This document shows, in pieces, positions 2,860 through 16,608 of a stretch of 64,000 nucleotides of DNA (positions are counted from its first letter, which is position 1; each line of letters begins with the position of its first letter). The DNA is from Micromonospora sp. Llam0 (GTDB taxonomy: Bacteria > Actinomycetota > Actinomycetes > Mycobacteriales > Micromonosporaceae): NCBI RefSeq assembly GCF_003751085.1, contig NZ_RJJY01000001.1, positions 3,286,001 to 3,350,000 on the forward strand. Direction: 5' to 3'. Made by a program: the position numbers and the translations under genes. The notes beneath the pieces are model-generated. The model did not search any database. It saw only the letters and a program-made list of their open reading frames with translations, and was not told where the DNA came from.

Positions 2860-8292
<5,433 letters not shown>

Positions 8293-13668: not shown

Positions 13669-14250
13669 ATGCCCCGGGTGAGCCAGATCCAGCTCGACGC
13701 ACGCCGCCAGGAGATCCTCGCCGCCGCCCGGGTCTGCTTCGCCCGGCACGGGTACGAAGGTGCCACCGTCCGCCGGCTGGAGGAGGCGACCGGCCTGTCC
13801 CGGGGAGCCATCTTTCACCATTTCCGGGACAAGGACTCCCTGTTCCTCGCCGTGGCCGAGGACGACGCCGCCGCGATGGTCGAGACGGTGGCCCGCAACG
13901 GCCTGGTCCAGGTGATGCGCGACCTGCTCACCCGGGCCGATTCCCCGGACACCGCCGGCTGGCTGGGCAGCCAGCTCGAAGTGTCCCGGCGGCTGCGTAC
14001 CGACCCAGACTTCGCCCGGCGCTGGGCCGCCCGGTCCTCGGCGATCGCCGAGGCGACCCGGGAGCGGCTCCGCCGCCAACGCGACGCCGGCGTGCTGCGC
14101 GACGACGTACCGATCGACGTCCTGGCGCGGTTCCTGGAGCTGGCCTACGACGGGCTGGTGCTGCAGCTGGCGATGGGGCGGCCGGGCAGCGACCTCGGCG
14201 CCGTGCTCGACATCGTCGAGGAGGCGGTACGTCGACCTCCGCCACGCTGA
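13669..14250 (+). CDS. acnR: TetR-family repressor, AcnR-like
   Basis: A 193-residue one-domain-plus-ligand-domain repressor. The HTH region reads RQEILAAARVCFARHGYEGA, then TVRRLEEATGLSRGAIFHHF and DKDSLFLAVAEDDAA. This closely resembles my recollection of Corynebacterium glutamicum AcnR, which represses aconitase. The C-terminal part (LEVSRRLRTDPDF, VPIDVLARFLE) also fits. No convincing Shine-Dalgarno precedes ATG 13669, so the mRNA may be leaderless or weakly translated. Genomic linkage to acnA and the shared operator support the assignment. Confidence 0.8.
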   Translation: MPRVSQIQLDARRQEILAAARVCFARHGYEGATVRRLEEATGLSRGAIFHHFRDKDSLFLAVAEDDAAAMVETVARNGLVQVMRDLLTRADSPDTAGWLGSQLEVSRRLRTDPDFARRWAARSSAIAEATRERLRRQRDAGVLRDDVPIDVLARFLELAYDGLVLQLAMGRPGSDLGAVLDIVEEAVRRPPPR

Positions 14251-14336: not shown

Positions 14337-15227
14337 ATGACGCCCGGTGAAACCTGGGGCATCCCCGGCCCCACCTTCCTCGCCGTCTTCGGACTGACCG
14401 CACTGGTGCTCCTCGTCGCCAACCTCGGCTACCGGCGGATCGCGCTCGCCGGGCACGACGGCCGCACCGGATCTCTCGGCGGCGCCGAGGTCGCGTACCT
14501 CAACGGCGGGGGCCGGTTGGCTGTGTACGCCAGCCTGGCGGCGTTGCGCTCGGCAGGCAGCGTCGACGTCGGCAGCCGCGGCACGTTGCGGGCGGCCGGT
14601 CCACTGCCGGCCGGTGCCGGGCAGCTCGACCAGGCGGTCCACCACGCCGCGCAGCGCCAGGTACGGGTCCGCGACCTGCAGACCGACCAGTGGGTCGTCG
14701 ACGCGCTGCACCGGATGCGCGACGGGCTGGTCTCCGCCGGCCTGGCCATCGGTGACGGCCAACGCCGTACCGCCCGGCTGCTCGCCGGCACGGTCGGGAT
14801 CCTCGCCGCCGTCGGTGTGCTGCGGGTGTTCGCCGGCGCCGCGAACAACCGGCCGGTCGGCTACCTGGTGCTGATGCTCGCGGTCACCGTACCGGTGGCA
14901 CTGGTGCTGTTCTTCTCGGTGCCGCGCCGTACCCGGGCCGCGAAACGCCTCCTCACCGAACTGCGCAGCCAGTACCGTCACCTCTCGCCGACCCTGCGGC
15001 CGGCCCCCGCGACGTACGGTGTCGCCGGCGCTGCGATGGGGGTCGGCGTTTTCGGAGCGGCGTCCTTGTGGGCCATGGACCCGGCGTTCGCGGGGACCGC
15101 GGAGATCCAGCGGGTGAGCGCCGGCACCGGGTCCTCCGGTTGGGGCGGTGACAGCGGCGGGGGCGGCGGTGACGGAGGCGGCGGCTGCGGCGGCGGCGGC
15201 GGCTGCGGCGGCGGCTGCGGCGGATGA
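14337..15227 (+). CDS. TIGR04222-type membrane protein with C-terminal Gly/Cys tail (putative MNIO substrate)
   Basis: A 296-residue protein with about four transmembrane helices (about 12-31, 145-163, 171-191 and 228-246) and soluble segments between. The last 35 or so residues are low-complexity Gly with a few Ser, Asp and Trp, and the only three cysteines of the protein: C284, C290 and C294, in GGGC, GGGC and GGCGG contexts at the extreme C-terminus. AGGAG lies six bases before ATG. The stop overlaps the start of the MNIO gene (ATGA at 15224). I recall that TIGR04222 proteins typically have such tails and sit beside DUF692. The tail looks like a peptide substrate fused to a membrane anchor. 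Confidence 0.75.
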   Translation: MTPGETWGIPGPTFLAVFGLTALVLLVANLGYRRIALAGHDGRTGSLGGAEVAYLNGGGRLAVYASLAALRSAGSVDVGSRGTLRAAGPLPAGAGQLDQAVHHAAQRQVRVRDLQTDQWVVDALHRMRDGLVSAGLAIGDGQRRTARLLAGTVGILAAVGVLRVFAGAANNRPVGYLVLMLAVTVPVALVLFFSVPRRTRAAKRLLTELRSQYRHLSPTLRPAPATYGVAGAAMGVGVFGAASLWAMDPAFAGTAEIQRVSAGTGSSGWGGDSGGGGGDGGGGCGGGGGCGGGCGG

Positions 15228-16081
15228 GCCCGATGTCCGCCACCGTCTGGCCGCCCAACCCCGACGGTGGCCTCGGGGTCGGCCTCGGCTGGCGGCCGGA
15301 GATCTCCGGCTTCGTCGATGAATTGCCCGGATTGCGCTTCTGCGAGGTGATCGCCGAGTCCGTCGACCCCGGCCGGCCACTGGACGACGGGCTTCGCCGG
15401 CTCCGTGAGCGGGGGGTGACCGTCGTGCCACACGGCGTACGGCTGTCCCTCGGCAGTGCCGAGCCTGTCGAGCCGGACCGGGTCGATCGGCTCGCGGGCG
15501 TCGCCGAGCTGCTGGACGCGCCCCTGGTCAGCGAACACATCGCTTTCGTCCGGGCCGGCGGGGTCGAGGCCGGGCATCTGCTGCCGCTGCCCCGCACCTG
15601 GGCGGCGGTCGACACGGTCGTCGGTAACGTCCGGCGGGTGTCCGCTGAGCTGCCGGTGCCGATCGCGCTCGAACCGATCGCCGCAGTGTTCGACTGGCCC
15701 GACGACGAGCTCGACGAAGCCGACTTCGTCAGCGAGATCATCGAACGCTCCGGTGCGCTGCTGCTGTTGGATGTCGCGAACGTCTACGCCAACGCCCGCA
15801 ACCGGGGCGACGACCCGGTCGCTCTGCTCGACCGGCTGCCGCTGGAACGCATCGCGTACGTGCACGTCGCCGGCGGTGCTGCCGACCGGGACGGGATCTA
15901 CCACGACACGCACACCGACCCGGTCCCGGCCGAGGTGCTGCAGCTGCTCGCCGAGCTGTGCGCCCGGCGGCGGCCACCAGCGGTGCTGCTGGAGCGGGAC
16001 GGGCACTATCCGCCGGGCGAGGTGCTGCGCGCCGAGTTGGACTCCATCGCGGCGGCTGCCGGGCTGGACCGGATCACGTGA
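15224..16081 (+). CDS. DUF692 / MNIO multinuclear non-heme iron oxidase
   Basis: A 285-residue TIM-barrel enzyme of the MbnB/TglH/BufB family, which oxidatively modifies Cys (or Asp/Asn) in peptide substrates. Putative metal ligands are all present: H70 in VPHGVRL, H105 in SEHIAF, E150 in ALEPIA, D183 and N186 in LLDVANVYANARN, H214 in YVHVAGG, D228 and H230 in HDTHTDPV, and E257 in LLERDGHYPP. The usual ENP motif is LEPIA here. The ATG overlaps the stop of the Gly/Cys-tail protein, and the stop overlaps the partner's GTG start. The exact chemistry is unknown; thiooxazole-type or excision reactions are only family precedents. Confidence 0.85.
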   Translation: MSPMSATVWPPNPDGGLGVGLGWRPEISGFVDELPGLRFCEVIAESVDPGRPLDDGLRRLRERGVTVVPHGVRLSLGSAEPVEPDRVDRLAGVAELLDAPLVSEHIAFVRAGGVEAGHLLPLPRTWAAVDTVVGNVRRVSAELPVPIALEPIAAVFDWPDDELDEADFVSEIIERSGALLLLDVANVYANARNRGDDPVALLDRLPLERIAYVHVAGGAADRDGIYHDTHTDPVPAEVLQLLAELCARRRPPAVLLERDGHYPPGEVLRAELDSIAAAAGLDRIT

Positions 16082-16608
16082 CCGGGCGGGTGTCGTCCGG
16101 CGCTGGTTCCGACCTCCGTGCCGAGCTCGCCGCCGCCCGACGGGCGGAGCTCGCCGCTGCCCAGCGTGCACTGGTCGCATCTCTCGTCGACGGCGCCGAT
16201 CCGCCACCCGGATTCGACCAGCACCGGCTGGCGGTCGCCCGTACCGCGTTGGCCCGCAAGCGGGCCGGCGAGGTGGCCCGGCACTGGCCGCTGCTGGCCG
16301 CCTCACTGGGTGACGCCTGGCCGGCCGCGTTCGTCCGCTGGGCAACCGGCCGGCGACCGGCGGGCGGGCTGCGTGACGGTTGGGAGTTCGCCCGGGCGCT
16401 GGCCGCCGACAACCGTCTGCCTGGCCTGGCCATCGCGGAGCTGGCCGGCCGGGAGGTCGGCTGGTGCTACGACGGGGCGTCGGTTCCCCGCCGACGCCGG
16501 CTTCCGGCGGTACGCCGGCTGCCCGGCGGGTGGACGGTCCAGGTCGCCGGTCGGGTACGGACGTTCGGCGGCGTCGCGGCATACGGCAGGATCGGGCCAT
16601 GGATCTAG
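16078..16608 (+). CDS. MNIO partner-like protein (putative substrate-recognition subunit)
   Basis: A 176-residue protein of unclear family. The helical, Ala/Arg-rich N-terminal half (AELAAAQRALVASLV...FVRWATG...DGWEFARAL) is followed by a basic, beta-rich C-terminal part (PGGWTVQVAGRVRTFGG). MNIO enzymes normally work with a partner that binds the precursor, and this gene's position right after the MNIO, with a GTGA overlap at 16078, suggests that role. From memory, similar proteins follow DUF692 in Streptomyces. The longer open frame upstream lies inside the MNIO gene and is rejected. It overlaps the SDR start by 10 bp. Confidence 0.65.
   Translation: MTGRVSSGAGSDLRAELAAARRAELAAAQRALVASLVDGADPPPGFDQHRLAVARTALARKRAGEVARHWPLLAASLGDAWPAAFVRWATGRRPAGGLRDGWEFARALAADNRLPGLAIAELAGREVGWCYDGASVPRRRRLPAVRRLPGGWTVQVAGRVRTFGGVAAYGRIGPWI

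Follow-up and report, generated by a model that had tools for sequence, protein, structure and literature searches.

The cysteines in the glycine-rich tail of a TIGR04222 membrane protein are very probably the substrate of the MNIO oxidase encoded directly downstream. Both genes lie in the window analysed here, a stretch of 64,000 nucleotides of Micromonospora sp. Llam0 (NZ_RJJY01000001.1, positions 3,286,001 to 3,350,000), and form a cassette with a third gene. The sequence-only reading had proposed that the MNIO turns the tail cysteines into metal-binding or redox-active groups. Its first part, the tail as substrate, is well supported by the co-occurrence of tail and enzyme, the swapping of the scaffold that bears the tail and the fold of the partner protein; metal binding or redox activity we still infer. 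The cassette comprises:

14337-15227, + strand: gene 1, TIGR04222 membrane protein of 296 amino acids (NCBIfam match), proposed MNIO substrate
15224-16081, + strand: gene 2, MNIO (DUF692, PF05114) oxidase of 285 amino acids (Pfam match)
16078-16608, + strand: gene 3, partner protein of 176 amino acids with GTG start, PME-type 2 like (homologue annotation, model fold)

Genes 1 and 2 overlap by ATGA, genes 2 and 3 by GTGA. The only cysteines of the gene 1 product are C284 (codon 15186-15188), C290 (15204-15206) and C294 (15216-15218), in a tail ending GGGGCGGGGGCGGGCGG. The earlier description of three overlapping genes with cysteine confined to the tail was borne out in coordinates, families and residues.

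Cysteine tail and its co-occurrence with the MNIO

The tail is conserved. All of the 120 homologues listed (1530 found) carry two to five tail cysteines and a terminal CGG; the closest of them, from Solwaraspora sp. WMMB762, shares 96% identity. Among these 120, the residue after a tail cysteine (n = 450) was glycine in 397 cases, serine in 51 and alanine in two, and tail cysteines are flanked nearly always by Gly or Ser on both sides. An MNIO was found downstream of the gene 1 homologue on the same strand in 59 of 63 loci from named genomes; the other four stop at a contig edge. In one of these loci (L057, Salinispora pacifica) one tail cysteine is left, that of the terminal CGG.

A survey of 324 genomes of the window's class, which we take to be Actinomycetes, detected TIGR04222 in 93 genomes at 118 places (E ≤ 1e-8) and MNIOs in 80 genomes at 88 places. 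At 66 of the 118 TIGR04222 places an MNIO was within 8 kb, on the same strand every time. A C-terminus counted as a cysteine tail if its last 40 residues included two or more Cys and were at least 50% Gly, Ser or Cys. Such a tail was present at 46/66 places beside an MNIO, at 6/24 in genomes whose MNIO lies elsewhere and at 3/28 in MNIO-free genomes. Two of the last three were judged artefacts and rejected: G272, a truncated frame with its cysteines where the domain ends, and G383, a spurious frame. In G300 the cysteine tail without detected MNIO lies at a contig edge.

Counted by genome (n = 93), 48 of 64 with the MNIO clade of the window had the tail, compared with 1 of 29 without this clade. 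When genus g7 was left out, the values were 37/38 and 1/28. Fisher tests on such counts presuppose independent genomes, which these are not; the count by genus is the safer figure. Tail and enzyme were both present in 23 genera and both absent in 13; one genus had the tail only and none the enzyme only. A survey of TIGR04222/DUF692 neighbours for conserved tail cysteines had been suggested as a check on the sequence-only reading, and at genus level tail and enzyme match. Five MNIOs of distant types were excluded from the genome and genus counts, and eight of the 88 MNIO places, one of them in G273, were left out of the clade count and of the ligand check described below. G273 was counted without tail and without MNIO clade, though its frame carries an internal cysteine stretch. 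At this locus (L231, G273:C1:5640744-5651241) the TIGR04222 cysteine stretch continues in frame into partner-like sequence, as judged by eye. No MNIO match was found between the two parts; the genome has a single MNIO match, a partial one at another place.

The tail is built of repeated GGC, from which TGC differs by a single base. Hence, the cysteines could be a functionless by-product of drift between the two codons in a GC-rich repeat. C-termini with at least ten Gly in the last 40 residues served as control, after removal of truncated rows and G383. Of these, 42/43 beside an MNIO had at least two Cys, compared with 6/17 with an MNIO elsewhere and 1/14 in MNIO-free genomes of the same class. 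The six in the middle group belong to g216 (five) and g172 (one), and a clade MNIO is present elsewhere in the genome. With zero or one Cys in 13 of 14 MNIO-free Gly-rich C-termini, and with the terminal CGG kept throughout the listed homologues, codon drift was rejected as an extremely improbable explanation.

Tails on other scaffolds

The strongest sign that the enzyme acts on the tail is that both are kept together while the rest of the substrate differs. For 22 of 80 MNIO loci no nearby TIGR04222 match was detected. Eight of these (L261, L264, L265, L267, L269, L270, L273, L274) encode a protein of 80-112 residues, lengths depending on the start codon picked by script, with one hydrophobic helix, a basic stretch and a Gly/His/Ser tail with three to eight Cys. 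In the MNIO tree these single-helix loci stand in two places, and three changes are required. Two further loci (L263, L266) carry the cysteine tail on longer frames. In the remaining 12 of the 22 no cysteine tail was found; five of these encode distant-type MNIOs. The changed scaffolds indicate that the enzyme needs nothing of its substrate but the tail. Thus, a short tail peptide together with MNIO and partner should suffice for an assay, such as mass spectrometry after co-expression.

Other MNIO sets were seen in the same survey. L257, L258 and L275 encode proteins of 169-223 residues with eight to ten Cys, followed by MNIOs of a different type (E about 1e-110); these sets resemble the adjamnio-I group in the text of Antoine et al. 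(2025; PMC12452194). Two of the three genomes (G432, G489) have TIGR04222 matches elsewhere, with Gly-rich ends without Cys. In L262 (G437:C12:90000-101000) a distant MNIO (5141-5983) lies beside two asparagine synthase-like proteins, named by eye, and a 67-residue open reading frame (2342-2545) ending SSCGGCNGCMGCSM is a candidate precursor of a ribosomally synthesized and post-translationally modified peptide (RiPP). L276 (G345:C216:57000-69000) is another candidate RiPP set: behind a distant MNIO come a 68-residue open reading frame (6549-6755), which has two Cys close to its end, and larger frames.

MNIO and partner protein

The gene 2 product matches PF05114 with E 4.6e-78. Its metal ligands were mapped by motif and alignment onto the TglH ligand list given in PMC10880893. 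All nine TglH iron ligands are present (H70, H105, E150, D183, N186, H214, D228, H230, E257), so that the full set of putative ligands noticed from the sequence was confirmed; they are also intact in all 80 survey MNIOs retrieved. By NCBIfam score the closest type is bufferin/HvfB (BufB/HvfB), but the enzyme scores below the equivalog cut-offs of both BufB (182.1 bits, cut-off 310) and MbnB (25.3 bits, cut-off 325).

The gene 3 product had no NCBIfam match, and in Pfam DUF2063 appeared only with E 0.12 and 13.1 bits, below the cut-off of 27.2. Its homologues are annotated with PF26136, some of them under the name 'SCO6045-like C-terminal domain'. The model of the partner has a mean predicted local distance difference test score (pLDDT) of 90.6, and the first four rows of its VIA-align comparison are TglI, NGO1945 and two MbnC structures. 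The protein is thus like NGO1945 and TglI and lacks the DUF2063 signature, which places it in PME-type 2. An iterated profile detected the partner domain in 74 of 80 MNIO loci, fused to the MNIO in 46; an earlier, non-iterated profile had found 39 fusions. Judged by the Pfam name, SCO6045 of S. coelicolor would be such an MNIO-partner fusion. Expression of SCO6045 is reported to rise 3.01-fold in oxidative stress, which was not the case in the HbpS-SenS-SenR mutant (PMC4991794).

Genomes without the cysteine tail

Several observations weigh against the tail as the substrate throughout the clade. Homologues in which the MNIO is retained and the tail lacks Cys had been named beforehand as evidence that would speak against the proposal, and such cases do occur. 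They concern 16 of the 64 genomes with MNIO clade and TIGR04222, namely 15 of genus g7, probably Streptomyces, and G381. In g7, 11 of 26 genomes with both MNIO clade and TIGR04222 have the cysteine tail and 15 do not. An intact MNIO-partner fusion with a tail-less TIGR04222 protein only was found in 14 g7 loci and in G381, in which a Gly tail without Cys lies beside the MNIO; in another g7 genome (G408) MNIO and tail-less TIGR04222 are on separate contigs. Three further g7 genomes (G023, G182, G475) have the MNIO, and no TIGR04222 match was detected in them. The g7 enzyme without a cysteine tail must have another substrate, or have lost one. Furthermore, no metal genes were recognised as conserved neighbours of the cassette among the 22 widest clusters from 597 neighbour proteins, inspected by eye without family searches.

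The MNIOs of the tail-less g7 loci lie in one branch (17 rows, support 100/97) within the cysteine-tail group of the MNIO tree, and their ligands are intact. Because 15 of the 16 tail-less genomes belong to g7 and their MNIOs to one nested branch, the exceptions read mostly as one secondary change and not as a refutation for the whole family. C-proximal Cys are absent in more than a quarter of the TIGR04222 proteins treated in PMC12452194.

The same genomes speak for another explanation, by which the tail cysteines bind metal or form disulphides unmodified, while MNIO and partner act elsewhere and are merely co-inherited. Intact MNIO and partner in 15 tail-less TIGR04222 loci and in three g7 genomes without TIGR04222 would fit this. 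The explanation is nevertheless improbable, given the tight match by genus, the tail kept on differing scaffolds and the Gly/Ser context on both sides of nearly every tail cysteine. In six g7 loci with an MNIO and no nearby cysteine tail (L096, L097, L098, L100, L101, L259), a protein of 62-81 residues with six Cys in CxxC pairs is encoded a few kb from the MNIO.

Fold and orientation of the membrane protein

The gene 1 product matches TIGR04222 with E 2.8e-41 and 141.7 bits, above the cut-off of 43. Its AlphaFold2 model (mean pLDDT 86.2, predicted template modelling score 0.80) and profile comparisons suggest the following parts:

14367-14444, + strand: helix 1, residues 11-36, a model helix, predicted to span the membrane with the N-terminus outside
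14460-14753, + strand: first soluble part, residues 42-139, GPP34-like by hhalign, predicted to be cytosolic
14754-14915, + strand: membrane hairpin, helices 140-169 and 175-193, by model, hydropathy and charge
14934-15116, + strand: second soluble part, residues 200-260, including the weakly hydrophobic segment 4 (residues 224-254), by model
15120-15224, + strand: disordered Gly-rich tail, residues 262-296, by low pLDDT, with the conserved Cys

In the model the second soluble part contains short helices at 224-239, 241-247 and 249-254, and the tail has pLDDT below 50 across residues 262-285 and 287-289.

Profile and model comparisons suggest that TIGR04222 resembles GPP34/GOLPH3. GPP34 is best known as a eukaryotic Golgi family. 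Residues 42-139 aligned with the GPP34 profile over 76 columns (hhalign, P 2.3e-5); controls gave P 0.25 and 0.34 with reversed and 0.098 and 0.11 with unrelated profiles. A structural alignment of the model with a chain taken as GOLPH3 covered residues 42-260. Any likeness to the GPP34/GOLPH3/Vps74 family (PF05719) would be a remote one between profiles. The Pfam gathering score is missed: no match was obtained for the window protein at E ≤ 1 or for seven TIGR04222 homologues at E ≤ 10. The genome of the window itself has 14 places matching PF05719. Foldseek with the TIGR04222 model gave no significant match, and the VIA-align re-examination was limited to Foldseek's own list of structures. 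Of two profile searches against PDB sequences, one gave no matches and the other six (E 1.5-7.9), on the Gly tail.

Another likeness concerns the DUF2207 C-terminal domain (PF20990), a precomputed Pfam domain in three of the 120 homologues listed (1530 found). The best scan (P0020, 24.9 bits, E 2e-5) spanned the membrane hairpin together with the basic stretch that follows, a part different from that most like GPP34. Every protein scanned stayed below the curated cut-off of 33, the window protein with 12.8 bits.

The orientation was examined with 49 of the 55 cysteine-tail rows, from 21 genera; rows below 60 bits or with a profile end before 220, and G272/G383, were dropped. Lys plus Arg averaged 0.94 in the 15 residues preceding helix 1 and 2.98 in the 15 following it. 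Ahead of helix 2 the mean was 3.02, in the stretch joining helices 2 and 3 it was 0.59, and behind helix 3 it was 4.67. The eight single-helix proteins lack Lys and Arg ahead of the helix and carry four to eight behind it. This charge pattern in both kinds of protein points to an N-terminus outside and a tail in the cytosol, the compartment in which an MNIO with no visible signal peptide would encounter it. Thus, the tail probably faces the cytosol, contrary to its published placement, though the window protein itself is a borderline case.

In the published placement, PMC12452194 assigns the low-complexity region to the periplasm from predicted topology. A modified tail facing outside would be a membrane-tethered bufferin, capturing metal before entry. 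Segment 4 could span the membrane in the window protein (hydropathy 1.61) and its nearest kin (median 1.43 in 113 of the 120 listed homologues, 1530 found). Across the family, segment 4 has hydropathy below 1.6 in 39 of the 49 cysteine-tail proteins, its best window contains a charge in 36, and it lies inside the GPP34-like alignment. In the single-helix variants, positive charge is found on the same side as the tail. Inspection by eye, with no prediction program, showed no signal peptide on the modifying enzymes. A periplasmic tail is therefore rather unlikely.

Neighbouring genes

One more gene lies just 5' of the cassette:

13669-14250, + strand: TetR-like regulator gene, named by eye without family search

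Homologues of this gene occur in 62 of 65 family loci. It is separated from gene 1 by 86 bases here and by a median of 87 over 56 measured gaps; it is a possible regulator of the cassette. Among the 65 Micromonosporaceae loci, HAD-like (63) and SDR-like (56) genes, also named by eye, recur beside the TetR-like one (62). This recurrence may perhaps be only synteny.

Proposed mechanism and comparison with known systems

In the mechanism we favour, the partner would present the membrane protein's Gly/Ser tail to a cytosolic MNIO, which would oxidise tail cysteines in their repeated [Gly/Ser]-Cys-[Gly/Ser] context. HvfB and its kin install 5-thiooxazoles according to PMC13419390 and PMC12668002; for thiooxazole peptides the latter reports absorbance near 305 nm. 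Because the enzyme is nearest to the bufferin/HvfB type, the likeliest product would be a metal-binding, thiooxazole-like heterocycle, with copper as the probable metal; by this analogy a metal-binding heterocycle appears the likelier outcome. In place of a released peptide, the membrane would carry a fixed metal-binding brush, probably on the cytosolic side. We assign this explanation as a whole a probability of about 0.6. A wider generalisation, at slightly less than even odds, is that the actinomycete MNIO clade modifies disordered Gly/Cys tails on the cytosolic membrane face and so builds a permanent metal-binding or redox surface. Its anchors would be interchangeable: some would be GPP34/GOLPH3-like domains that have three membrane helices, others no more than a single helix.

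A view of the architecture as undescribed does not hold, as Antoine et al. (2025; PMC12452194) already predicted TIGR04222 proteins with cysteine tails adjoining MNIOs and 'PME-type 2' partners, and a Micromonospora protein of 300 residues appears in the legend of their Fig. 4. According to the same text, TIGR04222 is mostly found in Actinomycetota, often by MNIOs, with Ser/Gly tails and interspersed Cys, and accounts for 40% of the candidate precursors without a signal, which number more than 1,000. Product, modifications and roles are left open there. On the product the sequence-only reading held: in the full-text literature found on TIGR04222, DUF692 and MNIO, one paper (PMC12452194) treats TIGR04222 and MNIOs together, and no paper on a product was found. 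Neither a single-helix scaffold nor a likeness to GPP34 is mentioned in the passages of PMC12452194 considered here, but either may be in print. New here are the genus-level co-occurrence, the Cys-poor control tails, the differing scaffolds, the near-universal partner, the possible GPP34-like fold and the probable cytosolic tail; this evidence turns a published correlation into a testable claim. If the claim is true, TIGR04222 has a function and MNIO enzymes make more than peptides, namely a non-released, protein-scale class of product. The chemistry of small metal-binding peptides would then also build permanent membrane surfaces in many Actinomycetes, as 23 survey genera carry both MNIO clade and cysteine tail.

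The cassette has the same three genes and C-terminal Gly/Ser tail cysteines as the TIGR04222-MNIO-PME-type 2 sets of PMC12452194. In contrast to that description, with PME-type 2 predicted in at least 10% of sets, many sets seemingly without a partner gene and a periplasmic tail, the partner domain is near-universal here and the tail more likely cytosolic. Bufferins, oxazolin and captophorins (BufB, HvfB, FonB) are closest by MNIO score and share the order of Cys followed by Gly, and bufferin-type systems require a partner (PMC13419390). Bufferin precursors carry a Sec signal and are paired with DUF2063 (PME-type 1) partners (PMC12452194), whereas here the precursor is a membrane protein with several membrane helices in its model and the partner is PME-type 2 like. 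TglHI and MbnBC are related by the iron ligands, identical to those of TglH, and by a partner fold like that of TglI and MbnC. The MbnB score of the window MNIO is far below the cut-off, and the substrates of these systems are short peptides, whereas here the putative substrate is the tail of a membrane protein.
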